Shown here in pieces: positions 31,478 through 48,933 of a stretch of DNA of 64,000 nt. Source of the stretch: a bacterium 1XD42-54 (GTDB lineage Bacteria > Bacillota > Clostridia > Lachnospirales > Lachnospiraceae); assembly GCA_003612585.1 (NCBI GenBank), contig RAZH01000004.1, positions 248,001-312,000 of the forward strand. Reading direction: 5' to 3'. The notes beneath the pieces were generated by a model. That model was not told where the DNA came from. It saw only the letters and a program-made list of their open reading frames with translations, and made no database searches. Both the position numbers and the translations under genes were made by a program. The stretch's first letter is position 1, and each line of letters begins with the position of its first letter.

Positions 31478-31521
31478 ACAGGGCAGCTGCAAAATCTCCC
31501 TTTGCGCAGCTGCCCTGTTTT
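31478..31521 (+). terminator. Rho-independent terminator after the second sensor operon
   Basis: A perfect stem of 12-13 bp (ACAGGGCAGCTGC with GCAGCTGCCCTGT) is followed by TTTTTAG. It abuts the stop of the convergent ABC transporter gene. Confidence 0.93.
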
Positions 31522-33179
31522 TAGCTGATCCTTCCATGTTCTACCGAATATACCTGATCTGTAATCCGCATTGTGGACGCTCTGTGCGATACCAGAACCA
31601 CGGTCTTTCCTTCCCGCTCTTTATAAAGTGACTTCAAAATAACCGCTTCGTTCAGGCTGTCAAGGTTGCTGGTAGGCTCGTCCAGCAGTAACAACGGGGC
31701 GTCATGCAAAAATGCCCTGGCCAGACCGATTCGCTGTCTCTCTCCGCCGGACAACGTATCTCCCAGTTCGCCAACCTCTGTATCATACCCTTCTGGCAGA
31801 CTCATGATAAAGTCGTGAATGGATGCTTTTTTACATGCACGCACCAGTTCTTCATCCGTAGCAGACAACTTTGCAATCTTCAGATTATTTTTTATACTGT
31901 CATGAAATAAATACGTTTCCTGCGTCACAAAACTTTCCATCGCCCGCAGATTTGTCGTATTTATCTCATTAATATCCTGTCCTGAGATCCCGATATTTCC
32001 TTTGTCTGTTTTCCAGAAACGCATCAACAGCTTTAAAAATGTAGACTTTCCGCTGCCGCTTCGTCCGGAGATTCCGATCACCGCATGCTTTGGAATCTCA
32101 ACACACACATCTGATAAAATCGTTTCGTCCTTGTAGGAAAACGTGACATGCTCTGCCTGAGCCCCCCTGAATTCAACCTCCGGAAATCCGGACACATCCT
32201 CAACAACCGGCGTTTCTTCCAGAATATCCAACACACGCTCACCTGCCGCAAAAGTGTTCTGCAGTGTACTTCCCAGATTTGCCAATGCCACTACCGGCCC
32301 GAAAGAACTCATAAGAGCTAATACCGCAAGCAACATTCCCTTAAAATCAATTACCCCATTCCTGCATAATCCCACTGCTGTAAAAATCATCAACAAATCA
32401 AACAGCAGAATCGCTGTATTCGTAAGCGCTGTATTTCTTCCGGTTACCCGCTTCATCTGCTCTTCTTCTTTTGAAAGCCCGTCGGTCCGCCCGTTCATGG
32501 CAGCCAAACGTACGGCGCCTGTACCGTATTGCTGAATTTCAGAAAGTCCCCGCAGACTATCCAGAACAAAGCTGCTGAGTTCACCGGATTTCTGGCGAAA
32601 TTTCATTCCTGTATCTCCATTTTGCTTCGAAATCATCAGCGGAATGCTCACCCCTACCACGACATATGCCCCCAGTCCGATTAAACCAAGCGCCGGATGG
32701 AACTGTCCAAGGTAGAAACACATCACCACGCAGAACAGTACTGCAATCACAATCGGCGAAATGGTATGCGCATAAAAAACTTCCAGCAGTTCTATGTCAG
32801 ATGTGATAACTGAAATCAGATTTCCTTTATCTTTTCCTTCCAGCTTTGCCGGGCAAAGTCTTCGAAGTGCCAGAAATACTTTATCGCGTATCAACGCCAG
32901 CAGCTTGAATGCGATAAAATGATTACAAGACTGTTCTGCATAGCGTAAAATACCCCGAAATGCCGCGAGAAGTACTGCCGTCAAAAAAATACAGGTTAAA
33001 GAAAACATTGTTTCCAATCCCATTGCATTCAATAAGGCATAACCTCCCAGCACTGTAATGAACGTAGCGCAAAGATGGCCACAAAGCCCCATCAGTATAG
33101 CAAGCAGCATATAACCGGTCAGAGGTTTTACCATCCCAATCAGATCAAGCATTACACGAAATCCACTTCTCTTCTTCAT
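31521..33179 (-). CDS. ABC transporter with fused membrane and ATPase domains, CydC-like
   Basis: 552 residues from the ATG at 33179, preceded by GGAGGAG and overlapping the partner's stop (ATGA). Six membrane helices are followed by an ATPase domain with GRSGSGKST (Walker A), LSGGERQRIGLARAFL (signature) and LLLLDEPTSNLD (Walker B). With the upstream gene it forms a heterodimeric exporter of the CydDC type, known to move thiols (cysteine, glutathione) and to be linked to haem and cytochrome bd assembly. No cydAB genes are nearby, so the CydC label is by similarity only. It is the last gene of the long minus-strand cluster that starts near 48.9 kb. Confidence 0.85.
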   Translation of the reverse strand: MKKRSGFRVMLDLIGMVKPLTGYMLLAILMGLCGHLCATFITVLGGYALLNAMGLETMFSLTCIFLTAVLLAAFRGILRYAEQSCNHFIAFKLLALIRDKVFLALRRLCPAKLEGKDKGNLISVITSDIELLEVFYAHTISPIVIAVLFCVVMCFYLGQFHPALGLIGLGAYVVVGVSIPLMISKQNGDTGMKFRQKSGELSSFVLDSLRGLSEIQQYGTGAVRLAAMNGRTDGLSKEEEQMKRVTGRNTALTNTAILLFDLLMIFTAVGLCRNGVIDFKGMLLAVLALMSSFGPVVALANLGSTLQNTFAAGERVLDILEETPVVEDVSGFPEVEFRGAQAEHVTFSYKDETILSDVCVEIPKHAVIGISGRSGSGKSTFLKLLMRFWKTDKGNIGISGQDINEINTTNLRAMESFVTQETYLFHDSIKNNLKIAKLSATDEELVRACKKASIHDFIMSLPEGYDTEVGELGDTLSGGERQRIGLARAFLHDAPLLLLDEPTSNLDSLNEAVILKSLYKEREGKTVVLVSHRASTMRITDQVYSVEHGRIS

Positions 33180-34918
33180 GCGTTTTCTCCTCCCCTCCCA
33201 TACTGCTCCAGATCTGCCTGGGTATCCCACAATTCCGCATAGATTCCATGGTTTTTCAACAATTCTTCATGTGTGCTGACTTCTGCCAGGCAGCCTTTGT
33301 CCATTACATAAATCTCATCCGCCGGTACAACATTTGCAAGTCTGTGCGAAACCAGAATCACAGTTCTTCTTTTTGCCAGTTCAAAAATCTGCTCCATAAT
33401 ATCATTTTCGCTCTCCACGTCAATATTAGATGTGGCCTCATCAAATATGTAAACCTTAGCGTCAAATAGCAACGCCCTTGCAAGAGCCAGGCGCTGGCAT
33501 TGCCCGCCGGAAAAATTCCCGGCATTTTCTGTAAGTTCCGTATCAAGCCCCTGTTCGGACCTCAGGAATTCTGCAAGATTCACCTGTTCCAACGCCCGCC
33601 AGAGCGCTTCATCTGAAGCATCCGGATTCCCCATAAGCAGGTTTTCTCTGACAGTTCCCTTAAACAGGTAACTGTGATGGCTGATATATACAAAATTTTT
33701 CAGCAGACTCGTCTCTTCGATCTCCCTGAGCTCATTATGTCCGATTTTCACACTGCCTTTATATCCTTTGTTCCTTCCCATCAAAACAGCTGCAATTGTG
33801 GATTTTCCACAACCGCTTTCTCCCACAATTGCCGTAAGCTTTCCCTGTTTAAAATTCATCTGGACATTCTGAAGCACCTCTCTGTCTTCTGTATAAGAGA
33901 AGCAGAGATTCTCGCATACAATGCTGGTGTCATCCGTTATCTTTTTCTTATGTTCCTGCGATTCCTCAGGCAGATCCAGCAGGCGAAAAATCTTATCACT
34001 CGCCGCCATTCCGTTCATTGCCACATGGAAAAAGGACCCTAGCTGACGCATAGGAATAAAAAAGTCTGCCGAAAGAAGAATAATAAACAATGCGCCTGCA
34101 AACTCTACTTTACCGGCTTTATACTGTGTAACAGCCATAATCATTCCAAGAGCTGCCCCACCATAGGCAATCAGATCCATAATGGTGATAGAATTCAGCT
34201 GCATGGTCAGAACCTTCATTGTAATCTTGCGGAACTTTTCTGCCTCCTCATTCATCTGCTGATTCTTAAAATCATCCGACTGGTAGATTTTCATTGTAGT
34301 AAGGCCCTGCAGATTTTCCAGAAAAGTATCGCCAAGCGCAGTATACTGTCCCCAATACTTTGCAAGCAGTTTCTTTGCCCAGGTCTGAACTGCCGCAATC
34401 GCCAGTGGAATCATCGGCACACAGATTAACAAAATGACCGCAGACGGTATATTCACAAAACACAATACGCCAAAGAGTGTCAACGGCGCCAGCATAGCAT
34501 AAAAGAACTGTGGAAGATATGCGCCAAAATACGTTTCCAGCTGATCAACTCCCTCCACAGCAACCTGAATAATTTCCGATGTATGAACCTGCTCAAGATA
34601 AGAAGTTCCCAGCCGGAGTAATTTTTCATAAATCATCTGTCGAAGTGTTTTTTTCACTGCTTTGGAGGAAAGATAACTCATCCTTGCTGAGCCCTCCGAG
34701 CAAAACCAGCGAACCAAAACCGCCGTCGCCGCAATTGCTATTGTCGTAAGAAATTGCCGCTGCGTCACATCCTGTTTATAAATTCCCGCAATCAGCCAGC
34801 TAACAGATCCCATCATGGTAATGTTCGCGGCAAGAGAACACCACTGCAGAACAACATTATTCCTCACATACTTTTTGCTTTCACTGACTGTATTGATCAG
34901 GCGCTTATTGATCATCAT
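33176..34918 (-). CDS. ABC transporter with fused membrane and ATPase domains, CydD-like
   Basis: 580 residues. The membrane domain includes YFGAYLPQFFYAMLAPLTLF, in which the YLPQ element is typical of CydD, and an FIPMRQLGSFFHVAMNGMAAS coupling region. The ATPase has GESGCGKST, FSGGQCQRLALARALL and VYIFDEATSNID. Substrate assignment (thiol or haem-related) is by family only. The start ATG at 34918 follows GAGAGG. It overlaps its partner gene by 4 bp and is 82 bp downstream of the large repetitive surface protein, with a perfect inverted repeat between them. Confidence 0.85.
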   Translation of the reverse strand: MMINKRLINTVSESKKYVRNNVVLQWCSLAANITMMGSVSWLIAGIYKQDVTQRQFLTTIAIAATAVLVRWFCSEGSARMSYLSSKAVKKTLRQMIYEKLLRLGTSYLEQVHTSEIIQVAVEGVDQLETYFGAYLPQFFYAMLAPLTLFGVLCFVNIPSAVILLICVPMIPLAIAAVQTWAKKLLAKYWGQYTALGDTFLENLQGLTTMKIYQSDDFKNQQMNEEAEKFRKITMKVLTMQLNSITIMDLIAYGGAALGMIMAVTQYKAGKVEFAGALFIILLSADFFIPMRQLGSFFHVAMNGMAASDKIFRLLDLPEESQEHKKKITDDTSIVCENLCFSYTEDREVLQNVQMNFKQGKLTAIVGESGCGKSTIAAVLMGRNKGYKGSVKIGHNELREIEETSLLKNFVYISHHSYLFKGTVRENLLMGNPDASDEALWRALEQVNLAEFLRSEQGLDTELTENAGNFSGGQCQRLALARALLFDAKVYIFDEATSNIDVESENDIMEQIFELAKRRTVILVSHRLANVVPADEIYVMDKGCLAEVSTHEELLKNHGIYAELWDTQADLEQYGRGGENA

Positions 34919-34942
34919 GTTTTTAACCTCTCAATATATACT

Positions 34943-34993: not shown

Positions 34994-35000
34994 GTTATCC

Positions 35001-38000
35001 TTATTCAGCTATTGTTTCCGTATTTGCCTCTGTTGTCACTTCTGCCATCGGCTCAGTTTCTGTCTCCGTCTCTGTTGCTGCTGTCTCCTCAGTTTCCGTA
35101 CCGGTCTCTGTTGCTGCCTCAGTTTCCGTTTCTGTCTCTGCTGCCTCAGTTTCCATTGCCGCTTCTGTCATCGGCTCAGTCTCTCCTTCTGCCTCTGTGT
35201 TCTCTGCTTCCTGTGCTTTCCGCTTCGCTGCATAAGTCCGGTTCTCTACTGTCTTGGCAGCTCCCGACTCGTCTCCGCCAATCGTTCCCGTATATGGCAC
35301 AAAGTTTCCATCGTCATCCACATTGTTAAAAGTCACAGCTCCGTACCACAGCTTCGAAGTAAATGTAATTACACCGTTTGCGTACGTAAAGGTAGTCGTA
35401 TTTCCACTCTCATAATTCAGAGTATACACGCCTTCTGCACTCGTAATCGTTCCGCTTCCTTTGCTTGTTTCCGGTGCGCTTGCATTATATACATCAAACG
35501 TCATAGCTGATGCATCAATCTCAAGGATCGGCGACATCATTGCGCCCATCGGAGACCAGCTGATATCTACCGCATATTTTCCGCTTGCCAGTACAGCAGT
35601 TTCACCTTCCCCTGTCCCCGGCTCATTTCCGCTTCCATGAACAGTTCCGGTATACGGCACAAAATTCCCATCGTCATCTGCATTGTTAAAACTTGCCGCC
35701 CCATACCACAGCTTGGAAGTGAATGTGATCACGCCCTTTGCATAGGTAAACGTAGTCGTGTTTCCATTCTCATAATTCAGCGTATATACGCCTGCTGCGC
35801 ATGTAATCGTTCCGCTGCCCTTGCTCGCGTCCGGAGCACTCTCGCCATATACGTTAAAGGTCATAGCTGCCGCATCAATATCCAGTACCGGAGTAATCAT
35901 TGCGCCCATCGGAGACCAGCTGATATCTACCGCATATTTTCCGCTTGCCAGTGCGGTTGTTTCTCCTTCTGCCTCGCTCTCAGATTCCTTTTCGGATTCT
36001 GTTTCTTTTTCTGTTTCCTTTTCGGATTCCTTCTCAGACTCACTCTCATTCGTTTCCGGTACATCGCCATAAACAAAATTCAGAGCAACCGTATCCGCTG
36101 CAAAAGAAGAAACCTTCCTTGTCACAGAAATTGTTCCATTGCTGTTCACGGTACCAGCCATCTGTGTGCCATCCGCTGCTACCAGCATAAGAGTACTTCC
36201 ATCAACCTTATAAGTACCATTCTCTGACTCGTTGTACTCATTTCCCATCATATTGAATGTGACAGAATAACGGTAAGTACTGTCTGCATTCAGTATCATA
36301 GAATATGCATAAACCACCTGTGATCCCATTGCAGTTTTTGTGTAAGTTCCACTGTAAGTACCAGTTTTCAGTACTGCTGTCTCATTTCCGCCTGGTTCTG
36401 TCTCAACCGGTTTCTCTGTTTCTTTTTCCGTTTCTGATGCAGTTCCTGTCCCCATCAATGTAGCTGTATAAGGCACAAACTTACCTGATGCGTTCTCATT
36501 ATTGAAGCTTGCCGATCCGTACCACAACTTGGATGTAAATGTAATCACGCCATCTTTAAAAGTAAATTTCGTTTTCTTTCCTGTCGTATAATTCAGTGTA
36601 AATACGCCTTTTGCATATTTAATCGTTCCGCTTCCGCGGCTCGTTCCTGATGCGCCCTTATTATAGAGATTGAACGTCATATTTTTTGCATCAATATCAA
36701 GGATCGGCGAAAACATCGATGCCATTGGAGACCAGCTGATGTCTACTGCATACTTTCCACCAACAAGTCCTTCCGCACTCACAACCGGATCCGCATTGCT
36801 TTCGGTTTCTTTTTCACTCTCTTTTCCATTATCTGGCGTAGTTGCCGGGCTGCTGCTCACAGACGGAGAATAGCCATACGTAAAAGTAACCGTAGCCGGA
36901 GAAAAAGCAAAGGAAGAAAGATATCCTGTCAGCGTTACTGTGTTTCCACTGATACTTCCGGACATGCTTTTTCCACCGGTCAGCGTAATCGAGCTTCCAT
37001 TGATTGTATACGTTCCATTGTCTGTTTCATTATAATCAGATCCCATTACATGAAACTTTACACTGTAAAAATATGTTCCATCTGCATTGAATGTAATCGT
37101 GCACGCATACACCAGTGGATTTCCCATCGCCGTTGTGCTGTACGTTCCGCCGTAGGTTCCTGTCTTAAAAGCAGAAGCTCCATCTTTGCTTCCAACAGAA
37201 TCTGCCGCATTCTCTGCATTCAGAGCCATTGATTTACTGATAATCGCTTCTTTGTCAATATCCGCAATCAGTTTCTCCTCCGAGATCATAAACTCCGGAT
37301 AGGCCACTTCTTCACTGCCTTCTTCCGTAAACTTTGGCTCTGTAGCTCCAAACCAGAATGGAGATACAAAAATAATTCTTCCATCTTCGCCAATCTCAAA
37401 TTCTGAGATATAATCGCCTTCCACTACCTGTTCTCCGTTTACAATATAGTATACGAAGTAATACTTTGTTTCCTCCGGCTCCGCTTCTGCGCCTGTCTCT
37501 TTTGCAGCCGTCTCTTCTGCTTCCGCCTCCGCTTCTTCTTCCAGCTTAGCTGTATACGGTACGAAATTTCCTGCTTCGTCCTCACTGTTAAAGCTTGCAG
37601 AACCATACCATAACTTAGAAGTAAATGTAATCACACCGTCTTCATAAGTAAATTCTGTTGTGTTTTCCCCATCCGCAAAATGCATCGTGTACACATCATC
37701 TTCAAAAGAAATCGAACCGTTTCCTTTTTCTGTATCCGGATCTGATGCACTATACAGTATAAAAGTCATATTCTCTGTGTCGATATCAAGCACCGGCGCA
37801 AACATTTCCGCCATCGGTGACCAGCTGATGTCTACAGAATATGCACCTGCCTCCAGATCTCCTGCCGGTGTCTGTTTGAATACTTTTCCAGCGCCCTTTT
37901 CCGTATCAGAAAAATCCGTATTACGGGAGAATACAAAATTCCCCTCCTCATCAATGCGCAGATACATCGTTACTGCCAGATCTTCTGAAACGACCAGTTC

Positions 38001-38336
38001 ACATTCATAAATATTTTCCAGATCTGTCACAATCGTTCCGGCAAAATTGTAGCTGCCTGTTACCGTCATATCCTGTGCAGGCATAACCTTCGGAAGATTT
38101 TTCCACTCCGTGAACACAAACTTTTCTTTTTCCGGAGCCTCCGGTGCTTCCGGCGTCTCGCCCTGCTGATACTTCTGCTCCGTAAATGCTTCCCCGTCCA
38201 GCAGGTAAGTTAAAGTATATCCCTCATCCTCTGCTGCGAATGCGACAAAGCTGCCCGAAAAAACGGCAATGCAAAGCATCAGCAGCGCAGCCAGCATCAT
38301 TCCCACGCCATGGCAACGTTTTTTTACATGAAACAT
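35001..38336 (-). CDS. Large secreted protein with two families of internal repeat domains
   Basis: 1,111 residues from the ATG at 38336 (AGAGGAG site seven bases upstream). A signal peptide ends near residue 35. Residues about 36-100 resemble an InlB-type beta-repeat (YTLTYLLDGEAF...FTEWKN). About 105-155 hold a small domain (AVTMYLRIDEEGNFVFSRNTDF region). Repeat A (about 100 residues, opening YAVDISWSPM and closing KLWYGSASFN...FVPYT) occurs four times, near 163, 526, 800 and 915. Repeat B (about 95 residues, opening KTGTYGGTYSTTAMG) occurs twice, near 391 and 660. Linkers and the last 90 residues are Glu/Thr/Ser low complexity. No LPxTG, lipobox or C-terminal helix is visible, so anchoring is unclear. 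A lipocalin-like or jelly-roll ligand-binding role is possible. Function unknown. Confidence 0.8.
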   Translation of the reverse strand: MFHVKKRCHGVGMMLAALLMLCIAVFSGSFVAFAAEDEGYTLTYLLDGEAFTEQKYQQGETPEAPEAPEKEKFVFTEWKNLPKVMPAQDMTVTGSYNFAGTIVTDLENIYECELVVSEDLAVTMYLRIDEEGNFVFSRNTDFSDTEKGAGKVFKQTPAGDLEAGAYSVDISWSPMAEMFAPVLDIDTENMTFILYSASDPDTEKGNGSISFEDDVYTMHFADGENTTEFTYEDGVITFTSKLWYGSASFNSEDEAGNFVPYTAKLEEEAEAEAEETAAKETGAEAEPEETKYYFVYYIVNGEQVVEGDYISEFEIGEDGRIIFVSPFWFGATEPKFTEEGSEEVAYPEFMISEEKLIADIDKEAIISKSMALNAENAADSVGSKDGASAFKTGTYGGTYSTTAMGNPLVYACTITFNADGTYFYSVKFHVMGSDYNETDNGTYTINGSSITLTGGKSMSGSISGNTVTLTGYLSSFAFSPATVTFTYGYSPSVSSSPATTPDNGKESEKETESNADPVVSAEGLVGGKYAVDISWSPMASMFSPILDIDAKNMTFNLYNKGASGTSRGSGTIKYAKGVFTLNYTTGKKTKFTFKDGVITFTSKLWYGSASFNNENASGKFVPYTATLMGTGTASETEKETEKPVETEPGGNETAVLKTGTYSGTYTKTAMGSQVVYAYSMILNADSTYRYSVTFNMMGNEYNESENGTYKVDGSTLMLVAADGTQMAGTVNSNGTISVTRKVSSFAADTVALNFVYGDVPETNESESEKESEKETEKETESEKESESEAEGETTALASGKYAVDISWSPMGAMITPVLDIDAAAMTFNVYGESAPDASKGSGTITCAAGVYTLNYENGNTTTFTYAKGVITFTSKLWYGAASFNNADDDGNFVPYTGTVHGSGNEPGTGEGETAVLASGKYAVDISWSPMGAMMSPILEIDASAMTFDVYNASAPETSKGSGTITSAEGVYTLNYESGNTTTFTYANGVITFTSKLWYGAVTFNNVDDDGNFVPYTGTIGGDESGAAKTVENRTYAAKRKAQEAENTEAEGETEPMTEAAMETEAAETETETEAATETGTETEETAATETETETEPMAEVTTEANTETIAE

Positions 38337-38384
38337 AATTTTCTCCTCTTCTTTCTTTTTATTTAGCAATTACAAAATACCAAA

Positions 38385-38420: not shown

Positions 38421-39398
38421 TCAACAACAAAATCTGCACGCTACAAAATGATCGGGTTCCACTTCCGTCAGTTTGCACTCTTCTGTCTCACAATCCGCAC
38501 GTGCGGCGGGACAACGCTTACAAAAGCGACAGCCTACCGGTGGATTAATTGGGCTCGATACATCCCCTTTCAGCGTAATCCGTTTTTGGTCGGAATTCAC
38601 ATCAATGGAAAGAACGGCAGAGATCAGCGCCTTTGTGTATGGATGAAGCGGATTCGCAAATATCTTTTCTGAATCGCCATATTCTACGACTTTCCCGAGA
38701 TACATAATCGCCATCCGATCGCAGATTTTTTTCACTACAGCCAGATTGTGAGAGATAAATAAATACGTAATTCCCATTTTTTTCTGCATATCCATCAGTA
38801 GATTCAGTATTTGCGCATGTACCGATACGTCCAATGCGCTGACCGGTTCATCGCAGACAAGATACTCCGGCCTCAGAATCAGAGCCCGGGCAATTGCAAT
38901 ACGCTGCTGCTGACCTCCGGAAAAATCAGAAGGATACCGATACAGATCAGCCTCACTTAACCCTACACTTTCCAGCATTCTGACAACCATCTCTTTTTGC
39001 TGCGAAAGCGTATAACCGCCGCGGATCACTAACGGTTCCGCGATCAGTTCAAATACTGTAAATCTCGGATTCAGGGAAGACCCCGGATCCTGAAAAATCT
39101 TCTGCATCCGCTTGCGCATTTCCCGAAACTGCTGCGTCGGCAATTCGTTGATATCCTGGCCGTCAAACAGCACCTTCCCTGCGCTCGGCTTCAAAAGTCC
39201 CAGCGTCGCATTGGCAAATGTCGATTTCCCGCATCCGCTCTCTCCCACCAGGCCGAACGTTTCCCCGCGGTGAATCTGTATCGATACATCTGTCGCTGCC
39301 TGCAAATACTTTGGTTTTGAAAATAACGCGTCTTTTTTTACCGGAAAATTGACACAAAGCCCGGAGGACTCTACCAGAATTTTATTTTTATGGCTCAT
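38421..39398 (-). CDS. Peptide/nickel-type ABC transporter ATPase, OppF-like
   Basis: 325 residues from the ATG at 39398 (AGGAGG site), overlapping the OppD-like gene by 11 bp. Walker A GESGCGKSTFANA, signature FSGGQQQRIAIARALI and Walker B YLVCDEPVSALDVS are intact. The C-terminal oligo_HPY region ends in an unusually Cys-rich tail (CRFCKRCPAARADCETEEC, then ACRFCC). In peptide importers this zone can carry an iron-sulfur cluster; that fits but is not proved here. Last gene of the five-gene importer, ahead of the repetitive surface protein. Confidence 0.93.
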   Translation of the reverse strand: MSHKNKILVESSGLCVNFPVKKDALFSKPKYLQAATDVSIQIHRGETFGLVGESGCGKSTFANATLGLLKPSAGKVLFDGQDINELPTQQFREMRKRMQKIFQDPGSSLNPRFTVFELIAEPLVIRGGYTLSQQKEMVVRMLESVGLSEADLYRYPSDFSGGQQQRIAIARALILRPEYLVCDEPVSALDVSVHAQILNLLMDMQKKMGITYLFISHNLAVVKKICDRMAIMYLGKVVEYGDSEKIFANPLHPYTKALISAVLSIDVNSDQKRITLKGDVSSPINPPVGCRFCKRCPAARADCETEECKLTEVEPDHFVACRFCC

Positions 39399-40371
39399 GC
39401 GCTTCCTCCTGTATCCAGCATCGTACCTGCCGTCCATTTTCCAAAGTCCGCAAAGGCGGCATATATGTTTTGCATTTCTCTGTCGCGCAGGCGCATCTGG
39501 GATGAAAATAGCATCCGGATGGTTTATTCATCGGATTTGGCAAGGAATCCGGAATCTGGATGAATTTGCCCTTTTTATCCTCCATCTTTGCCACTGAGCC
39601 AATCAGACCTTTTGTATACGGGTGCAACGGCTCACGAAATAATTCCTTTGCCGGTGCTTTTTCCACAATTTTACCACTGTACATCACGCAGATTTCATCT
39701 GCCATATGTACTACTACGCTGAAATCATGTGTAATCAGCAGCAATGCCTTATGATGGCTTTTCTGCAGATCGGATAACAGATCCAGCACCTGCGCCTGAA
39801 TGGTCACATCCAAGGCTGTCGTCGGCTCATCCGCGATGATCAGATCCGGATTACATGCAAACGCCATGGCAATCAAAACGCGCTGACGCATGCCGCCTGA
39901 CAATTCATGCGGATAGGCCTTGTAGCGAACCGCCGGATCTGGCACACCCACGAGCTTTAACGCCTCTATGGAATGTTCCTTCGCTTCTTTTTTTGATACA
40001 TTGAAATGTCTGATAAATATCTCATCCAGCTGTTTCCCTATGGTCATTACAGGATTTAATGCTGACAGTGCATCCTGAAAAATCATGGAAATTCTTTTGC
40101 CTCGGAAATCCTGCATATCTTTATCGCTCAGTTCCCGTATGTCTGTACCGCACAGCTCCATTTTGTCTGCACGCACAATCGCGCCTGAATTTCCCAGCAG
40201 TTTCATGGACGCCAGGGATGTAACGCTTTTTCCGCACCCGCTTTCTCCCACAAGAGCAACGCATTTTCCTTTCTCAATTTCCAGGTCTATCCCCTCTACC
40301 GCACGGATGATTCCAAGTTCATTTGGAAAAACCACTTTCAGGTTTCTGATATCAAGTACTCTTTCACTCAT
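39388..40371 (-). CDS. Peptide/nickel-type ABC transporter ATPase, OppD-like
   Basis: 327 residues from the ATG at 40371 (AGGAGG site), overlapping the permease gene by 8 bp. Walker A is VGESGCGKSV, signature LSGGMRQRVLIAMAF and Walker B LIIADEPTTALDV. The C-terminal oligo_HPY domain has the HPRCACATEKC cysteine pattern. It powers import through the adjacent OppB/OppC-type permeases. The class covers peptides, nickel chelates, haem-like compounds and oligosaccharides, so the substrate is open. Confidence 0.93.
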   Translation of the reverse strand: MSERVLDIRNLKVVFPNELGIIRAVEGIDLEIEKGKCVALVGESGCGKSVTSLASMKLLGNSGAIVRADKMELCGTDIRELSDKDMQDFRGKRISMIFQDALSALNPVMTIGKQLDEIFIRHFNVSKKEAKEHSIEALKLVGVPDPAVRYKAYPHELSGGMRQRVLIAMAFACNPDLIIADEPTTALDVTIQAQVLDLLSDLQKSHHKALLLITHDFSVVVHMADEICVMYSGKIVEKAPAKELFREPLHPYTKGLIGSVAKMEDKKGKFIQIPDSLPNPMNKPSGCYFHPRCACATEKCKTYMPPLRTLENGRQVRCWIQEEAHEP

Positions 40372-41350
40372 CTGCGGTTCCTCCTGTCTCCACATCATTC
40401 ATAGACTGGAAAACCTCTTCCAGATAACGATGATTCAGCTGCCGATGCATCACATACGCTCCGCTTTTTCGCTTCATCTTCGGATTCAGAATTTCTTCAA
40501 TTGCCAGTCCGAGGCGCATAAATGCAAACACAGACAGAAAAATTCCAATTCCCGGTGCAAGAATCGTCCACCAGTGTCCAAACAGCATCGAGCCGCCGCT
40601 TTGCGCATCAGCAAGCATTTTTCCCCAGCTGATTGCAGTTGGATTGCCAAGTCCCAGGAAACTCAGTCCTGCTTCTGCGATCATAATCCCCGCACACGTA
40701 AGCGCAGTGTTCATTACAACCAGATGGGAAACGCCCGGAAGAATATGCCGAAACATAATGTACTTTTTTCCCGCCCCGGCCAGCTCCGCCGCCTTCACAT
40801 AATCGGAATTTTTCAAAAGGAGTACCTGGGAGCGCACAACTCTGGAAAGGCTCTGCCACCCGAAAAGTACAAATACAAGCACAATGACTACGTAGCTGTG
40901 CCCGAAAATATTTGTAATCACAATCGTAAGCGGCAAAGTCGGAATCACAATCATGATATCCACGATACGCATCAGTACCATATCCACAATGCCTCCCAGA
41001 TAGCCTGCAGCCACACCAAGAACAGAGCCGAGCACTGCAATCGCCAGTCCCGTAATGATGCCGACGCTTAAAGATACCCTTGTTCCATAAATCAGCATGC
41101 TGAACACGTCCTGTCCCGTCGTAATGGATGTCCCCAGCAGATGCGTCAGGCTTGGGGAAAGCCCTTTGTCAACACGCTGCGTTACGTCATAAGGATCATA
41201 TGGTGCAATCCATTTTGCGAATACCGCAGTCAGAACCAGCAGCAAAACAACGATCATACCGATTCTTCCCTGCCTGTGCTTCCAGATCTTTCTGACAAAT
41301 GCTCCGCTCTTATTTTTCAGTATTTTTAAATTTTCAACTTTACTTTTCAT
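40364..41350 (-). CDS. Peptide/nickel-type ABC permease, OppC-like
   Basis: 328 residues from the ATG at 41350 (GGGGAGAAG site), overlapping the OppB-like gene by 4 bp (ATGA). The first 30 residues are cytoplasmic; an OppC_N helix (GRIGMIVVLLLVLTAVFAKW) is followed by LLGTSITTGQDVFSMLIYG, typical of OppC/DppC. Five further helices and the EAA-type loop (ELAGAGKKYIMFRHILPGV) are visible. It forms the channel with OppB. Confidence 0.93.
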   Translation of the reverse strand: MKSKVENLKILKNKSGAFVRKIWKHRQGRIGMIVVLLLVLTAVFAKWIAPYDPYDVTQRVDKGLSPSLTHLLGTSITTGQDVFSMLIYGTRVSLSVGIITGLAIAVLGSVLGVAAGYLGGIVDMVLMRIVDIMIVIPTLPLTIVITNIFGHSYVVIVLVFVLFGWQSLSRVVRSQVLLLKNSDYVKAAELAGAGKKYIMFRHILPGVSHLVVMNTALTCAGIMIAEAGLSFLGLGNPTAISWGKMLADAQSGGSMLFGHWWTILAPGIGIFLSVFAFMRLGLAIEEILNPKMKRKSGAYVMHRQLNHRYLEEVFQSMNDVETGGTADE

Positions 41351-42345
41351 CTCTTCTCCCCTAACGTTACACGAGGATCCAGCAAACTGTAACATAAATC
41401 TGTAACAAGATTTGCCACCAGCGCAAAAGCGGATAAAAATATCATAATCCCCATCATAAGAGGATAATCATTTGTGTTATTCGCCTCTAGGAACAGTGTA
41501 CCTACACCGTTCCAGTTGAAAATCTGTTCAATCACCACCGAACCGCCAATCAGACCGGAAATGCTCATTCCGAGACTGGTGGCAATAGGCAGCATGGCAT
41601 TACGCAGCGTATGCTTGTAAATAACTGCAGTATTGGAAACGCCCTTCGCCTTTGCCGTAATAATAAAATTTTCATTGGATACCGCAATCACACTGTTTCG
41701 TGTACTCTGAGCATAAGAAATGATTCCGCCAATGACACTGCTGATCACAGGAAGAGCCGCATTATATGCAACATTCAGCACACTTTTTGCATTCCATCTA
41801 AACGAAGACACCATGTTCTGGTCTGTGTATGCCGGGAATATCTCCCACTGAAAACCCAGAAAAAATGCAAGAAGCAATGCAAGAAAGAAAGCCGGCAACG
41901 CAGTTGTAATGGTAGATGCGTTCATCAGCGCCCGATCCTGCCATCCGCCTCGTTTCCAGGCGCAGAATGCGCCGATCAACATACCGAAGAAAAGAGAAAT
42001 CAGCATACTGGATACCGACAATACAAGCGTCCACGGAAGTCTGGCAAAGATCAGATCAATAACCTTCGGACTTCCTGACTGGTAAGACGTTCCCAGATCG
42101 CCTTTACATAAATTTGATATGTATCTGCAAAACTGTGACCAGGTCGTTCCATCCAGCCCGTACTGCTCCCTGGTAAGTTCCTTGATCACCTCATACTGTG
42201 CATCGGACATGTTTCCCTGTGCCGGATAATAACGGGAACAGGGATCGTCCACTCCAATACGCGGAATAAAGAAACACAGCGTCACTACGACTGCAAACAC
42301 AAAAACGGTATACAAAATTCGTTTGACTATATAGATCTTTCCCAT
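41347..42345 (-). CDS. Peptide/nickel-type ABC permease, OppB-like
   Basis: 332 residues with six helices. The first helix (ILYTVFVFAVVVTLCFFIPRI), the QYGLDGTTWSQFCRYISNL segment with GDLGTSYQ, and the loop ITAKAKGVSNTAVIYKHTLRNAMLP are typical of OppB/DppB. It starts 3 bp after the binding-protein stop, so all five importer genes (binding protein, B, C, D, F) are translationally coupled or nearly so. Confidence 0.93.
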   Translation of the reverse strand: MGKIYIVKRILYTVFVFAVVVTLCFFIPRIGVDDPCSRYYPAQGNMSDAQYEVIKELTREQYGLDGTTWSQFCRYISNLCKGDLGTSYQSGSPKVIDLIFARLPWTLVLSVSSMLISLFFGMLIGAFCAWKRGGWQDRALMNASTITTALPAFFLALLLAFFLGFQWEIFPAYTDQNMVSSFRWNAKSVLNVAYNAALPVISSVIGGIISYAQSTRNSVIAVSNENFIITAKAKGVSNTAVIYKHTLRNAMLPIATSLGMSISGLIGGSVVIEQIFNWNGVGTLFLEANNTNDYPLMMGIMIFLSAFALVANLVTDLCYSLLDPRVTLGEKR

Positions 42346-42348: not shown

Positions 42349-44256
42349 TTACTCCACCTTTTTCAGTGCACACAACGTCTTTGTATGAAACACCGTCTGT
42401 CCCGGAACTACTTGGTAGCCGGAAAACCGGTCTGTCCGCGCTACAGACAGCACCTCAGCAGAATACAGCGGAATTTTATAATACGCCTGCGCAGTCTTTT
42501 CCTGAAGCTCATAAATCAAATCCACCTTCAGATCCTGATTCAGGGTATAACGCATCTGTTCAATCAATTCTGTCATTTCTTCATCCTGGTATTTTCCATA
42601 ATTAGACGAACGTTCTCTTGTCACAAAATGAGCTCTGTACATGGTATCTGCATTCGCCATAGACAAAATGACCGCCTGTACTGTCATATCAAAATTACTC
42701 GAATAAAGATACGTGGTCTCCGGCGTCGAACCGGACGCTTTAAATTGTATTTCAATTCCGATTTTCTGGAACTGCCTCTGCAAATAAGCAATCAGATCCT
42801 GCTGACCGGCAGACGCCAGTATCTCAAAAGAAATCCGTGCCCCATCAAGAATACGGTAACCACTTTCATCCTTCTTTGGACATATGCTATCCAGTATTTC
42901 ATTGGACTGCGCAATTTTCTCCTCCATATCACCGGACAGAATATCGGAATTTGCGTTATATAGCAGCTCATTGGAGGAAAGAATCAATCCTGCCGAAACC
43001 GTCGTTCCTGCACCATTCAGAATTTTATCCACAAGTTCATCCTGATTAATTGCCAGTGCCACTGCTTTCCGAAAGTCTACATCCTGAAGAAGAACTTTCA
43101 TTCCTTCCTTATATGGATCCGACGGATTCACATTCAAAACCAGCGACGTAACCGATGTGCCGGGTGAACGGGAAATATAAATGTTTTCTTCTTTTTCAAA
43201 AAGTGTCAGATAGTCGGAGCTGACAGCCGAATCCAGAATATCCACATATCCTTTGAGGAAAGCAAAAATCGCCGTATTGGAATCAAGATAAAGCATCAGC
43301 TTAATTTTATCGACTTTATACAGCGGCCCTCCGTCCTCATCCGTCAGATGATAATTCGGATTGCGATCCAGTGTAATCAACTGACTGTTTGTCTCCTCCC
43401 GGTTCAAAATCCACGGCCCGCTCCCTACAGGGTTCTGATACTGTTCCAAAAATTCACCCTGGGGGTTTTTGTTGTTCAGCTGCTGCTGTTCACTGACCAT
43501 CGGTTCCCAAATATGTTCCGGTAAAATCAGAATCGTGTTAAAAAGTGTTGTCACTGCTCCCAGCACTTTGTTTACCAGAAGATACATAACGGTATCCTCT
43601 TCCCCTTCTTCAATCGGAAAAGTACCGCTGTAATCCGGATGTCCTGCAGTAAACATTCCCTGCTTTACCAGTTCTCCCTTTGAAGACTCATGCAACAGAT
43701 CTGCTGTCCAGGCCAATGCACCGGCATGATTGCTGAGTGCATTATCAGTCGCCACATCAAACGTATAATATACGTCTTCTACCGTAAGCTTTTCGCCGTC
43801 TGACCAGTAAATATTATCAAACAGCTCCAGCCTCACAACCATGTAGTCTTCTGATGTTCCACTGTAATATTCCTCTACTGCCTGATAGTCAATGGCCCCG
43901 TCATACGTCCCGTCATCTGTTAGCGGCTTTCCCTCCAGATCCACATAACACCACTGCTTTGCTGTGAGAGCTTCAAACGTTCCCGTTTCATCATCATACG
44001 AAAACAGCGTATTATACAGCATGCTCGCTACCGTCGGTGCAATCCCGTCTCTCGAAAGCCATGGCATAAAAGAAGACGGAAATGAGGTTCCCACATAGCC
44101 TACATACAAACTGGAGGAATCATCGGTCTTTCGTGTATCAATAGAGGTACTACAACCTGTCAGATTCACGATCAGCAGGCATATCATTGACAGCGCCGCT
44201 ATTTTTCTTGTCATACGGAAACCGTAGTTTCCTGTACGGCAGCTTTTACGCTTCAA
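42349..44256 (-). CDS. Family-5 solute-binding lipoprotein of the importer
   Basis: 635 residues if the TTG at 44256 (AGAGGTG site, spacing 7) is used, 621 from the ATG at 44214. The shorter form gives a textbook lipoprotein signal (MTRKIAALSMICLLIVNLTGC). SBP_bac_5 features: PTVASMLYNTLFSYDDETG, IYWSDGEKLTVEDVYYTFDV, PVGSGPWILNREE, DFRKAVALAINQDELVD. It is longer than typical (about 520-550) because of insertions in the first lobe. It binds the importer's substrate at the outer face of the membrane. The start overlaps the flavin-type gene by 11 bp. Confidence 0.9.
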   Translation of the reverse strand: MKRKSCRTGNYGFRMTRKIAALSMICLLIVNLTGCSTSIDTRKTDDSSSLYVGYVGTSFPSSFMPWLSRDGIAPTVASMLYNTLFSYDDETGTFEALTAKQWCYVDLEGKPLTDDGTYDGAIDYQAVEEYYSGTSEDYMVVRLELFDNIYWSDGEKLTVEDVYYTFDVATDNALSNHAGALAWTADLLHESSKGELVKQGMFTAGHPDYSGTFPIEEGEEDTVMYLLVNKVLGAVTTLFNTILILPEHIWEPMVSEQQQLNNKNPQGEFLEQYQNPVGSGPWILNREETNSQLITLDRNPNYHLTDEDGGPLYKVDKIKLMLYLDSNTAIFAFLKGYVDILDSAVSSDYLTLFEKEENIYISRSPGTSVTSLVLNVNPSDPYKEGMKVLLQDVDFRKAVALAINQDELVDKILNGAGTTVSAGLILSSNELLYNANSDILSGDMEEKIAQSNEILDSICPKKDESGYRILDGARISFEILASAGQQDLIAYLQRQFQKIGIEIQFKASGSTPETTYLYSSNFDMTVQAVILSMANADTMYRAHFVTRERSSNYGKYQDEEMTELIEQMRYTLNQDLKVDLIYELQEKTAQAYYKIPLYSAEVLSVARTDRFSGYQVVPGQTVFHTKTLCALKKVE

Positions 44257-44923
44257 CGCCTGTCACCTCTGAAACCGGATATGCCAGCTGTTTTCCAAAT
44301 CCGTTTTTGGATGCAGAATTGTCATAAATTTCTTCAATCCGGAAAATGTAGGCCGGATAACTCAGCCATCTGGTCATATCTGGTGTATGATAGACGTCAT
44401 GCTGCGCATTGATAAACTGCTGGTACAGTTCTCTCTTTCCTGAAATGTTCTCATCGTAAATTTCCACTTTTCCTTTTAATTTGTAGGAAATACCAGGCGG
44501 CTGATGAAAAATCAACGCAGCCTCCTTATTTACCTGATAATTGATCCATGTGTGTGACTTTGCCATCTCCAGACTGCCCAGCTTTGATAAATCTACTCTG
44601 TCATATGCATCTTCGCCATACATGTATTTGATCAGAAGTTCCATACCGCGCTGCCCGTATGTTTTATCCTCCGGATCATACGTTTTGATATGCGCAACGT
44701 ATGCCTCCAGCGTCTCTTCCAGATATTCATCCTTAGGCAGAAAGCCAACGCCTTTTATACTTGCATTCGGTCCTGCCGGCCCATAGGAAACAAATGCCGG
44801 TTCATGGGAACAGAAATTCAAAAACAATTGTTCTTTTGATCCCATTACGCCATTGTACATATCAATAACATGCTTTGCTCTTTTCTTAAAAGCCCAGTCA
44901 AAAAATCTCTGTGATGATTCCAT
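44246..44923 (-). CDS. Putative FMN-binding split-barrel (PNPOx-like) protein
   Basis: 225 residues from the ATG at 44923 (GGGAGGAACCT site). No signal or membrane segment, so cytoplasmic. The stretch SHTWINYQVNKEAALIFHQP followed by YKLKGKVEIYDE has the form of the pyridoxamine-phosphate-oxidase-like split barrel (strand, short turn, GxVEI strand). The N-terminal 100 residues are helical and not recognised. Split-barrel proteins include flavin reductases and haem-degrading enzymes of the HugZ class, so a reductive or cleaving step on an imported compound is conceivable. It sits inside the importer operon, overlapping the binding-protein gene. The family call is tentative. Confidence 0.5.
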   Translation of the reverse strand: MESSQRFFDWAFKKRAKHVIDMYNGVMGSKEQLFLNFCSHEPAFVSYGPAGPNASIKGVGFLPKDEYLEETLEAYVAHIKTYDPEDKTYGQRGMELLIKYMYGEDAYDRVDLSKLGSLEMAKSHTWINYQVNKEAALIFHQPPGISYKLKGKVEIYDENISGKRELYQQFINAQHDVYHTPDMTRWLSYPAYIFRIEEIYDNSASKNGFGKQLAYPVSEVTGVEA

Positions 44924-44958
44924 AGGTTCCTCCCATTTCTGCTCTGTTTTCCTTTTCA

Positions 44959-46083
44959 TCATTTATCTGCAACTACTGTGCACTCATATCTTGCCAGCCC
45001 CGCTGATTTACGCACCCGAAGCCCGTTAAAAGTAAGCTTTCCACCTTCACAGGAACATGTTCCGGCCGGCACGGTAGCTACCTGTTTCAATCCACGCACA
45101 GATGTCTCCGGATGATCCGGATACTGTTTGATATAACCGTTAGCCGTATTAATTGACAGAATTCCTGTCTCTGTAAAATCCGCCGCCGTTGCTTCGTAGC
45201 TTCCGTCTGCATACACCTTTACCTTCACATCAAAGGTTTCATTCTCTCCCGTCACCTCTCCGTTTCCGGAAAGCTCTGCGATCACAGACGGTTCCTCTAT
45301 CCTTGTAAACTCCAGTTTTTCTCTCTCCTGCGCGTTTGTATCAGGATACACGGACACCTGTAATGTTTCAGCATCTACGACATCGCAGGAAATCCGGGAA
45401 CCACCGTCCGGCTCCAGGGCCAGCTGCGTGGTGTTAACACCGTACGTTCCTGTTTCATACCAGAAACACATCTGACCATCCTGCTCATAGCGGATCATAT
45501 GCATATAGCTGTCGTCTTCGTAGAAAGCAACCGTATGCAGATACGTCACACCGTCTTCTGCCATATCCGCCGCTTCATAGCTTCCGACCTGAAACTCTGA
45601 TTCCGTATCCGGCGCATCATAATCTTCCGGAATAACAACCGCAATCAACTGCGCATCCGGATTATCGTCCGAAGTCGTCGTAGCCTTTGCAGAACCGTAG
45701 TAAATGTAATCACAGCCGGTAAAATCAAGGCTTCCATCCTCCGTCACAACAAAACTGCTCGTCAAACCGTCAGATACTGATTTTTCTTCTCCGTTAACGG
45801 TCTCATACACCATAATGTACTCGTCTTCGGACTCCTGAAACGTTCCTGAACTCTTATTTGTGGCAAAATCAACCGTATTGGAAAACAGGAAATTTCCATC
45901 TTCTTCCAGACGGAGATAAATAGTCAGATTCATTCCTAGCTCCGTCAGATCAACATAATAATCATTGGCAACCTCTTTCGTATCCGTTGCTTTTTTCTCT
46001 TCTGACTGTCCGCAGCCTGTCATACCCAAAACCAGAACTGCCGCCATCAGACCTTCCAAATATCTGCCAGCTGATTTTCCCAT
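44959..46083 (-). CDS. Lipoprotein sharing domains with the large repetitive protein
   Basis: 374 residues with a clear lipobox (VLVLGMTGC, Cys near 24). The first 120 residues (NLTIYLRLEEDGNFLFSNTV, then DEYIMVYETV) match the small N-terminal domain of the 1,111-residue protein. Residues about 170-260 (VGSYEAADM, VAFYEDDSYMHMIRYEQDG, ETGTYGVNTTQLAL) match its repeat B. A last domain follows (DVKVKVYADGSYEATAADF). It would be anchored to the outer face of the membrane. It starts 2 bp after the stop of the Ig-like protein gene and precedes the split-barrel gene. Likely role: ligand capture or hand-over beside the importer; inference. Confidence 0.8.
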   Translation of the reverse strand: MGKSAGRYLEGLMAAVLVLGMTGCGQSEEKKATDTKEVANDYYVDLTELGMNLTIYLRLEEDGNFLFSNTVDFATNKSSGTFQESEDEYIMVYETVNGEEKSVSDGLTSSFVVTEDGSLDFTGCDYIYYGSAKATTTSDDNPDAQLIAVVIPEDYDAPDTESEFQVGSYEAADMAEDGVTYLHTVAFYEDDSYMHMIRYEQDGQMCFWYETGTYGVNTTQLALEPDGGSRISCDVVDAETLQVSVYPDTNAQEREKLEFTRIEEPSVIAELSGNGEVTGENETFDVKVKVYADGSYEATAADFTETGILSINTANGYIKQYPDHPETSVRGLKQVATVPAGTCSCEGGKLTFNGLRVRKSAGLARYECTVVADK

Positions 46084-46085
46084 CT

Positions 46086-46799
46086 CTATTTCTCCGTATC
46101 TTCCTCTGTTTTCTCAGTACTTTCTTCTTCCGTATCCTCTTCTTCCACTTTTACAAGCTCCATCTCTGTAGCGGCACCGCCTGTCGGGAGCTTGCCCGTG
46201 AGACATCCCTTCTCATCTGAAATGAGAAACACAGCCGTATACTCACCCAAAACATCATCTGTAAAAGTAATCTCCGTGCCTGCCATCACATAAGTTCCTT
46301 CTGCCTCCAGAGCCGGCATCTCTCCGCCGCCATTTAACGAAACCTCCATCGGCGCCCTGTAGTAAGAATAAGTGCCATCCTCCTTCAATACAATATCAAC
46401 AGCAACATCACATCCCATTGCTTCAATTTTTTTCACACCGGAGTATGTGCCAAACAGATCATAAACTGCCACATCCATACTTGCCGAGACAGTCTCATCC
46501 GCTGCAGAAGTTGCAATTATTGTCGTAACTCCATATCCAGTCGCTGTAATCACACCTTCTCCGGAAACCTCTGCAACCGAATCATCATACGTAGAAAAAA
46601 TAATCTCTTCATTTGCATCATCCCCTGAAATTTCAAGAGCTGCCGCTGCGTCATATGTGCTCCCAAGCCCCGGAATCAAATGTGCCGCTTCCTCAAATTG
46701 AATACTTTCCGGTACCTTTCCCTGTGCGCCTGCAGCCGCCGGGATGCCCAGTACGCAAAGTGTTGCCATTCCTGTTGCAAAAAGTTTTTTCCGATTCAT
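46086..46799 (-). CDS. Secreted protein with Ig-like (Big_2) and repeat-B-like domains
   Basis: 237 residues, AGAGGAGG ribosome site. Signal peptide about 1-25 (ATLCVLGIPAAAGA). Residues about 30-110 look like a bacterial Ig-like domain (EIIFSTYDDSVAEVSGEGVI and TATGYGVTTIIATSA are typical Big_2 strands). Residues about 115-210 resemble repeat B (FGTYSGVKKIEAMG, LKEDGTYSYYRAP, EAEGTYVMAGTEITF). The tail is Glu/Thr-rich. No anchor is visible. It lies between the M6 protease pseudogene and the lipoprotein gene. Confidence 0.75.
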   Translation of the reverse strand: MNRKKLFATGMATLCVLGIPAAAGAQGKVPESIQFEEAAHLIPGLGSTYDAAAALEISGDDANEEIIFSTYDDSVAEVSGEGVITATGYGVTTIIATSAADETVSASMDVAVYDLFGTYSGVKKIEAMGCDVAVDIVLKEDGTYSYYRAPMEVSLNGGGEMPALEAEGTYVMAGTEITFTDDVLGEYTAVFLISDEKGCLTGKLPTGGAATEMELVKVEEEDTEEESTEKTEEDTEK

Positions 46800-46850
46800 C
46801 TTCTTTTCCTCCTCTTATTGATAAATCCTTTTCTATCTGTATTTCGGATT

Positions 46851-48933
46851 TTACACTCCCGTTATAAATCCAAAGATACTGTTAAAGTTATTCCTTACTG
46901 ACTGTGATTCTGTGCTTTTTACAACCCCAGCCGGAATTACCAGCGTATAATCGCAATTACTTTCCAGCGCTTCATCAAACACAATGCGCATCTCTCTTCC
47001 ATCTGTCACAACATGGTATTCGTCCAACAGCTGGTTTCCTGACGCAACTATAATCTTTGAAAACGAATCTTCATCAACCGCTGCAATCATGCGGTCGAAT
47101 GTCACGGTAATCTCTTGCGTATCCGCCGGAATCGTCACAATCTCGCTCTCCCGGCAGGGAACAATTACCGGCTCCGGTGTGACGCTTTCAATCGATAGAC
47201 TATTCGTCGGTTCTTCATAGCTCAGTCTGATTACGGCCTCTCCCGTTTCCGATATTGATGCAACCGTAATCGCCAGGCCATTATAAACCGTTGCATTTCC
47301 ATAGGCATCGTATCCGTTCGTATTCGGATAAGTCTCCGGTGTAATCTGATCTCCTGCCAGATAGTAATCTTTCGGATCATAAGAAATTTTGTTGCCTGAA
47401 CCCATCGTAAGATAATTCAGTATTTCATCTTTTCCATCCGCTTCAAGAGCACTGATGAACTTCGTACTCGTATAAGAGTTATCATATTTGAATCCAAATG
47501 CATTCCAGTTTCCTTCCAATTCTCCTTCATCTAAAGAAGCGTCATATGAAGAACTCTCACAACAGGCTCCTTAAGTCGTGTCAGCTCTCCTGCATTCATC
47601 GTTGGGCTGACGACCTCAATCACCAACAATTCTGTAAACAGCGAATCCGAATCCTTTAATTTTACAAAGATCGCGTCTCCTCTCTCATTTGACGGCCGAA
47701 GCGTGTAAACGTGCTCCGCCTCGTTTAGCGAAGCAATATCCAGATATTCGATTACTTCCGGATCAACCCATCCTAACAGCCATTTGCTAAATGCATTATG
47801 ATCCGCTGTGTTGGAATCCATCATATCCATTCCACCAAGTCCGCCTTCTAAGGCTCCTCCGGTATATGCGTTCCCGTATCTGGTTCTCTCTTTCGTATCA
47901 TAACTGTAATAATCATTTAATCCGAGCAAATGTCCTGTCTCGTGCGTCAGAGAATTGACATTGCATACAAGCGGCGGCACCGATGACCAGACTGTCGTTC
48001 CCGGCACGAAAATGTACCCTGTCACTTTTGCATCCCATTCTTGCGGAGAATTCATCCAGGAGGACCGGTATGCGCAGGACCACATCCCCGTATCGTTGTC
48101 CATGTTTCCTGCCCAGAGGACATAAAGAGAATCAATAACACCGTCCTTATCTGCATCATATTCCGTCAGATTCAGTCCCTCTTCCTGAATAAAATAATTC
48201 AGCACTTCTTCCATGATCTCTTTATCCGATTCGTACTTGCCTCGCTCTTTTTTCATGCGGTACCAGTCCAGCACGGTCCCATCAATCGTCAGATTTCCAT
48301 AGGAAGACCTGTAATAATATGCACTGAGCGAAGTTCTGTTTGACAGTCCAAATAATGCCTCTTCGATTCCTTCTGCCGTAATAAACCGCGGCCTCTTGTA
48401 ATCCGGAAAATCAATTAAAAGTACCAACGGCCTTGCAGTTCCAAGAGACGGCATGCTCTGCTGTAGCATCACGGTTCCATTTTCAAATGCACGCACAACA
48501 GGCGCCTCTTTTCCACTGACATCCTGCGGCTCATACACCACTGTATCTTCCTGTTCCCGTTCGACCTTTTCAATAAACTCCAGTGTAGTCCCTGCCGTCC
48601 AGTACACTCCATACCCGCTTGCCGGATCAATATTCCCGCTTCTCGGAAGCAGATACGTCGACGCCGCGAATTACAAACACGTCTGCATCATAAAGAGAAA
48701 GTGTGTAAGTCCCCATTGCATGCTCTGCATCATATGAAACCGGAGCATCCGTATAGGTAAACACAATGTCCTCTGCCGTATCCTTCCCCCGATTCAAGCT
48801 CATCGTAAATAAACGTCCGACCATTCAAAACGTCCGGGAGTATTTGCATTTCAGCTGCCCTTACTTTCTGATCCATCCCCCACATGCAGCACATACCGGT
48901 CACCATAGCCATTCCTATCAAGAATTTTTTCAT
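46851..48933 (-). pseudogene. Secreted M6-type metalloprotease, frameshifted
   Basis: The reading frame is continuous only if three shifts are allowed. A signal peptide and start (ATG at 48933, GGGAGAC site) run into a G5 tract at 48786-48790, where one base too many breaks the frame. The second piece ends its match near 48660-48670 and continues in the third frame (STYLLPRSGNIDPASGYG). The third piece has the catalytic motif HETGHLLGLNDYY (zinc HExxH with downstream Asp) and the family's LVLLIDFPDY. A one-base loss near 47546 then moves to the last frame (DASLDEGELEGNWNAFG), which ends in a beta-rich domain with an Ig-like segment. Intact it would have about 690 residues. All neighbours are intact, so decay is likelier than poor sequence. 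Confidence 0.8.

Follow-up and report, generated by a model that had tools for sequence, protein, structure and literature searches.

Peptide-type importers have been implicated in haem uptake. In Paracoccus denitrificans, Pden_1323, a split-barrel c-type haem oxygenase, is reported to be coded inside an opp operon whose importer is proposed to bring in haem-peptides, and the authors suggest that enteric bacteria possessing both Opp and a Pden_1323 homologue could exploit such peptides (PMC8131568). Dpp-type uptake, in which a peptide-type importer is used for haem, has been reported in Haemophilus (PMC2738685) and in Mycobacterium tuberculosis, where it depends on DppA (PMC6751184); no split-barrel or CydDC partner of the Dpp systems is known to us from these two reports. 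Here we describe a cluster of genes on the minus strand of a 64,000-nucleotide stretch of the Lachnospiraceae bacterium 1XD42-54 (contig RAZH01000004.1, positions 248,001 to 312,000; hereafter the window), which is likely to be a haem or haem-peptide acquisition operon. In this cluster a predicted split-barrel protein, SB, is coded between a putative lipoprotein, lipo, and an OppABCDF importer, followed by a repetitive exported protein, rep, and by a CydDC-like pair of ATP-binding cassette (ABC) transporter subunits. The source genome comprises 3.7 Mb in 34 contigs and, judging from its lineage, probably belongs to a Lachnospiraceae-like, gut-dwelling anaerobe.

The arrangement resembles the Paracoccus system in having the split-barrel gene within an OppABCDF operon, and goes beyond it with the exported proteins lipo and rep and the CydDC-like pair. 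What is new is that the Opp/split-barrel core is combined, in what is probably an anaerobe, with CydDC and exported proteins. A literature search, with most subscription journals outside it, found no description of this operon among the papers listed. A search on anaerobic haem degradation in connection with the gut and Lachnospiraceae yielded nothing, and none of the listed papers on haem uptake mentions Lachnospiraceae by name. The statement of the original prediction, which was made from the letters of the window, that no system with this set had been described is therefore upheld for the whole set as far as searched, but not for its core, which has a precedent in Paracoccus (PMC8131568).

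The cluster is real and co-directional. Thirteen open reading frames (ORFs) of at least 200 aa occupy positions 31521-48607 of the minus strand, and the reading frame of a broken M6-type peptidase gene begins at about 48933; the eleven or twelve close-set genes of the original prediction are twelve if the pieces of the M6 gene are counted as one, and the largest gap between them is 82 bp. In the order of transcription, they are:

47531..48933, minus strand: broken M6-type peptidase gene (PF05547), comprising ORF 47531-48607 and a 5' stretch in another frame that reaches about 48933
46851..47519, minus strand: Big_5 ORF, probably the tail of the M6 gene (PF13205, 32.2 bits, cut-off 23.6)
46086..46799, minus strand: Big2, with a signal-like start by eye (weak Big_2 match, PF02368, E 0.0033, under cut-off)
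44959..46083, minus strand: lipo, a beta-rich candidate capture protein and putative lipoprotein (lipobox by eye)
44246..44962, minus strand: SB, member of a rare split-barrel family, candidate enzyme or chaperone for haem
42349..44256, minus strand: OppA-type substrate-binding protein, lipobox by eye (PF00496, 146.9 bits)
41347..42345, minus strand: OppB-type permease (PF00528, 136.5 bits)
40364..41395, minus strand: OppC-type permease (PF00528 and PF12911)
39388..40398, minus strand: OppD-type ATPase (PF00005 and PF08352)
38421..39437, minus strand: OppF-type ATPase (PF00005 and PF08352)
35001..38369, minus strand: rep, repetitive, with a signal-like start by eye, candidate surface capture protein (SWSPM-type units, Lipocalin_4)
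33176..34918, minus strand: CydD-like ABC transporter subunit (408.3 bits, curated cut-off 435, TIGR02857)
31521..33230, minus strand: CydC-like ABC transporter subunit (321 bits, curated cut-off 329.05, TIGR02868)

By ORF coordinates, the gaps measure 11 bp (M6/Big_5), 51 (Big_5/Big2), 2 (Big2/lipo), 3 (OppA/OppB), 51 (OppF/rep) and 82 (rep/CydD), and the overlaps 4 bp (lipo/SB), 11 (SB/OppA), 49 (OppB/OppC), 35 (OppC/OppD), 50 (OppD/OppF) and 55 (CydD/CydC). The long overlaps arise because first start codons were chosen mechanically, and the true starts are probably further in. A consensus scan of positions 31000-50000 found no minus-strand terminator-like site inside the gaps of the cluster; the scan returned 23 sites, the top-listed one at 49256-49230, upstream of M6, and since 13.7 are expected by chance, single sites of this kind mean little.

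Conserved core and exchange of the importer

The SB family is rare. It was found in 4 of 98 relatives, in 1 of 392 genomes of the order (the source genome) and in 2 of 391 genomes of the class (the source genome and G776), these samples overlapping and each including the source genome. A scan of named genome contigs gave five loci, three of them identical with those of genomes G026, G029 and G046. Together with the window, G776 and the loci L010 and L012, the distinct SB loci number seven; the flags for an internal TGA on the copies of G029 and G046 fit a normal stop at the gene end.

In all four Opp-type loci (window, G026, L010 and G776), SB directly precedes OppA, and a lipo-type gene lies just upstream of SB or, in G776, divergent from it. 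The unit lipo-SB-OppABCDF recurs in every Opp-type SB locus that was found, and because this order is found in other genomes, we regard the cluster as more than a chance association. The importer belongs to the Opp/Dpp family, as the original prediction of a peptide-type importer had it, with PF00496, PF00528 twice, and PF00005 with PF08352 twice, all over their gathering scores. The orthologues of OppA are 75% (G026), 68% (L010) and 49% (G776) identical, and those of lipo 58% (G026) and 45% (L010), with a homologue at an E of about 1e-11 in G776. OppABCDF is complete in the window, L010 and G776, and is split over two contigs in G026, with OppD, OppF and rep on the second. Behind OppF, the window, G026 and L010 carry rep; in G776, the Opp genes are instead followed by a 137-aa gene and by a ZIP (PF02535) metal transporter gene. 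A search for Opp orthologues in 299 genomes, mostly one per genus, recovered only the source genome. Although metagenome bins are among the other SB loci, chimaeric contigs are unlikely, because the gene order agrees among the four Opp-type loci. Scattering of these genes over unrelated loci in related genomes, which the original prediction had named as grounds for refutation, is true of CydDC and M6, but not of lipo-SB-OppABCDF.

The other context of SB carries a different importer. The genes at the G046 locus code, in this order, for a binding protein, a FecCD permease, an ATPase, SB, a 232-aa protein and the CydD-like and CydC-like subunits; G029 has the same order on a shorter contig that ends inside CydD. 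At both loci, SB thus sits between an IsdE-like/FecCD/ATPase importer and the CydDC-like pair, and Opp is not at the locus. With the IsdE model, the binding protein of G046 reaches 286.2 bits, just under the cut-off of 298.65, compared to 61.4 bits with the ferric dicitrate and 38.1 bits with the BtuF model. At E<=1e-40, the IsdE model matched 6 of 98 relatives and none of 14 control genomes; among the 47 genomes of the genus it matched G029 and G046 only, both SB carriers, and the source genome gave no match. All four SB carriers of the genus have a CydDC-like pair in the vicinity of SB, on the same strand in the window, G046 and G029 and divergent in G026.

The CydDC-like pair is also found with haem-uptake genes where SB is not. 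In G051 and G088, which belong to the same order, its neighbours are IsdE-type importers and proteins whose NEAT and Shp matches exceed the cut-offs; in G088 it is divergent from the IsdE-type genes, with a regulator gene between. At the thresholds used, IsdE and CydD were both matched in G029, G046, G051 and G088, and in all four they lie within about 6 kb of each other; the remaining IsdE genomes, G079 and G092, gave no CydD match. In G051, further IsdE matches fall on fragments of a second contig, outside the locus analysis. The window resembles these Isd/Hts-type loci in gathering exported proteins, an ABC importer and a CydDC-like pair at one place; unlike them, it has Opp instead of IsdE/FecCD, it includes SB, and it shows no NEAT or Shp match, whereas G029 and G046 hold SB within an IsdE-like version of the locus.

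Two observations concern these loci. The 232-aa protein between SB and CydD in G046 (L008, 10428-11126, minus strand) has a Cys/His-rich N-terminus, no Pfam match over the gathering score, no NCBIfam match and no counterpart in the window operon. In G079 and G092, two genomes of one genus, an IsdE-like binding protein, a permease and an ATPase lie among proteins that, by eye, look like nitrogenase-like reductase parts (L035, L036).

The CydDC-like pair and the split-barrel protein

The last two proteins of the cluster are nearest to CydD and CydC. In a tree of 52 sequences, the window CydC and CydD group with E. coli CydC (support 100/93) and CydD (100/97), respectively, and seven paralogues of the same genome fall outside; the E. 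coli branches are long. Of the 98 genomes, 23 have a CydD homologue (E<=1e-100), and the neighbourhood of each was inspected. The tree and the residue check included 22 of these CydD loci (G029, cut by the contig end, was left out) and 21 CydC sequences (none being present on the contigs of G029 and G035).

In E. coli CydDC, the haem iron is reported to be held by CydC His85 and CydD His312 (PMC13337084). In the alignment, His85 is kept in 21 of 21 CydC-like and His312 in 22 of 22 CydD-like sequences; in the seven other ABC exporters of the source genome, the corresponding histidines occur in 2/7 and 0/7, respectively. The two halves therefore resemble E. coli CydDC both in grouping and in axial haem ligands, which supports the haem type that the original prediction had offered as one alternative for this pair. 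Unlike E. coli CydDC, they score under the curated cut-offs, three other residues are changed, and the genome gave no cytochrome bd match (PF01654), a search whose control found the family in 10 of 14 genomes. As to direction, the E. coli paper describes export (PMC13337084), while a review on enterococci lists CydCD as a likely importer, and oppBCDF as a proposed low-affinity haem transporter (PMC11282960). Among the small proteins coded next to CydDC-like pairs or to the Opp genes of G776 are YgbA_NO (PF11756), DUF454 (PF04304) and ZIP proteins (L061, L064, L066, L077 and L080).

A split barrel had been guessed for SB, and the structure model agrees with it: the predicted fold is that of the flavin mononucleotide (FMN)/haem split barrels, with HupZ in the first row of both aligners and the haem-bound KtzT, At3g03890 and HugZ also in the list. 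SB thus resembles HupZ (PMC9237417), HugZ and HutZ in predicted fold, but it shares only 13-16% identity with them, and the Z-scores of the top rows are tied with those of non-haem split barrels. In HugZ-type haem oxygenases, a C-terminal loop is reported to carry a haem-ligand histidine (PMC8131568); the seven-member SB alignment has no invariant His after residue 203, and hence we see no sign of such a loop.

In comparison with Pden_1323, the SB profile finds no split-barrel chain in the PDB up to E 10, the model matches 6vna_B weakly (Foldseek E 6.9e-3), and predicted helices at 78-92 and 102-115 appear to form a two-helix insertion. No member passes a Pfam cut-off; PNPOx_N is matched in three of seven at a best E of 0.0056, with 15.6 bits against a gathering score of 28.1 in the G046 copy and no match in the window copy.

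Probable haem acquisition and rival readings

In the mechanism that we favour, lipo, rep and perhaps Big2, exported and lipocalin-like, would pick up haem, or peptides bearing it, at the cell surface, and OppABCDF, an importer of known family with a presumed substrate, would bring them into the cell. Cytoplasmic SB, by its predicted fold, would bind haem and free the iron, or hand haem on as a chaperone. The CydDC-like pair would then carry haem through the membrane; its simplest role would be the disposal of surplus or spent tetrapyrrole, with import as the alternative. Iron is the likeliest gain, because the genome has neither a cytochrome bd match nor a match to ferrochelatase, the sole haem-synthesis gene sought.

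We favour haem because of several converging data: the exchange of importers, which places SB beside an IsdE-like importer and the CydDC-like pair in G029 and G046; the adjacency of SB and the CydDC-like pair in all SB carriers of the genus; the company that this pair keeps with NEAT and Shp proteins in G051 and G088, without SB; the axial haem histidines; the fold of SB; the recurrence of lipo-SB-OppABCDF in G026, L010 and G776; and the reported precedents of an opp-operon c-haem oxygenase (PMC8131568) and of DppA-dependent haem uptake (PMC6751184). The same IsdE-like partners, NEAT/Shp neighbours, histidines and fold favour the haem or other tetrapyrrole that the original prediction had named among possible substrates.

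A number of points weigh against this reading. At 17 of its 23 loci, several of them on short contigs, BLAST comparison with reference genes and visual inspection recognised no SB, Opp or Isd neighbour of the CydDC-like pair. It is for this reason not tied to the operon, and the complete path from release to export that had been proposed is not supported as a fixed set. L010 and G776 show no CydDC-like gene before their contigs end, and E. coli CydC residues R81 (Q here), H132 (V) and R136 (H) are not kept. At L012, in a Candidatus Fermentithermobacillaceae genome, SB occurs without any of these cluster genes; by inspection, its neighbours look like TldD/TldE.

On the side of the proteins, the SB model, built from six sequences, is of moderate confidence, and the split-barrel fold, Z-tied in its top rows, also serves flavin and F420 enzymes. 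The model of lipo is poor (predicted local distance difference test score, pLDDT, 56.8), with no Foldseek match at E 0.001, and a Pfam search of the window proteins found no NEAT or Shp match in lipo, rep or Big2. Fur-like boxes, 6 compared to 5.81 expected, are not above chance, and other routes to haem are possible beside the ferrochelatase step. Moreover, HugZ-type proteins are not known to us to react without oxygen, and the organism is probably anaerobic.

The same genes could serve plain peptide nutrition, with Opp importing peptides, SB acting as a flavin-type housekeeping oxidoreductase, the CydDC-like pair exporting cysteine or glutathione, and the exported proteins binding peptides or mucin. 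The sequence family of the importer, the many flavin or PNPOx-type proteins among the fold matches of SB, the thiol-exporter names of the CydDC models and the M6 peptidase gene upstream all suit this explanation, which we nevertheless consider improbable, since two genomes place SB next to an IsdE-like importer, two others place the CydDC-like pair next to NEAT/Shp-IsdE genes, and this pair retains both haem-ligand histidines. The G046 locus, with a FecCD-type permease beside SB, could also suggest that another metal chelate is imported, a siderophore or corrinoid, in which case SB would be a flavin-dependent reductase and the pair with the exporter fold would either recycle the ligand or import it as IrtAB does; exporter-fold siderophore importers such as IrtAB are on record (PMC10246721), and the ZIP gene of G776 would fit. 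However, by score the binding protein of that very locus is much closer to IsdE than to the ferric dicitrate and BtuF models, and together with the conserved histidines and the NEAT/Shp partners in two genomes this makes a different chelate quite unlikely.

Least probable of all, and in our opinion very unlikely, is a bilin system, in which bilirubin- or biliverdin-like tetrapyrroles would be imported and reduced by SB in the way F420-dependent Rv2074 reduces biliverdin. Rv2074 is indeed among the fold matches of SB, and a gut setting is likely from the lineage, but the IsdE, NEAT and Shp partners point to haem itself, and conserved axial histidines suit an iron centre.

Within haem acquisition, a more specific version, which we hold to be doubtful, is that Opp imports haem-peptides made by digestion, such as cytochrome fragments, that SB frees the iron without oxygen, perhaps reductively with a flavin, and that the CydDC-like pair, independent of cytochrome bd, clears the tetrapyrrole. 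Such a system, if it exists, would parallel the Paracoccus opp/Pden_1323 route under anaerobic conditions and would represent a new kind of haem breakdown in the absence of oxygen. To our knowledge, how obligate gut anaerobes obtain iron from haem is poorly understood, and the operon may show how they use it. It offers a small, testable gene set, with Opp where relatives have an IsdE-like importer, a rare split-barrel protein beside either, and a CydDC-like pair without a cytochrome bd match. In addition, it is a natural test of the published suggestion that Opp and a split-barrel protein let enteric bacteria take iron from haem-peptides (PMC8131568).

Exported proteins, M6 gene and neighbouring loci

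The first stretch of the M6 gene runs into stops, a second ORF carries the M6 match (PF05547, 31.1 bits, cut-off 22) and a third the Big_5 match, the latter probably being the 3' part of the same gene. The gene is broken, as had been noticed, and no M6 match was found in the fetched stretches of G026, L010 and G776. By this comparison of loci, it lies outside the conserved unit, and the release step assigned to it in the original prediction is not supported.

Three extracellular proteins with shared domains had also been proposed. In BLAST comparisons, lipo and rep do share stretches (E 5e-4 and 8e-4), but Big2 matches neither. Big2 was seen only in the window and in G026, where its orthologue is 55% identical. 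No Pfam or NCBIfam match was obtained for lipo at E 0.001. The rep protein has lipocalin-like stretches (Lipocalin_4, 25.8 bits, cut-off 22.4) and four SWSPM-type units, with SWSPM at residues 182, 545, 817 and 937; the unit is present in 2 of 144 relatives, the source genome and G026.

Convergent with the end of the operon, positions 27515-31473 (plus strand) code for a histidine kinase, a DUF3502 protein with a sub-threshold SBP_bac_1 match, and an AraC-type response regulator. Farther along, at 25860-27404 and 22727-24358 (both minus strand), lie TatC and TatA/B-type genes and, nearby, a protein with a twin-arginine translocation (Tat) signal match and hydrolase and metallo-beta-lactamase domains; these may constitute a small Tat system together with a dedicated substrate.

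A two-gene Septu-type defence system, consisting of a PtuB-like HNH protein and a PtuA-like ATPase (best PADLOC scores 130.7 and 500.5 bits, respectively), lies at 49806-51839 (minus strand), upstream of the M6 pieces. Finally, positions 52742-54517 (minus strand) hold a GGGtGRT protein (PF14057), upstream of which a protein with a weak NifU_N match, under cut-off, is coded.

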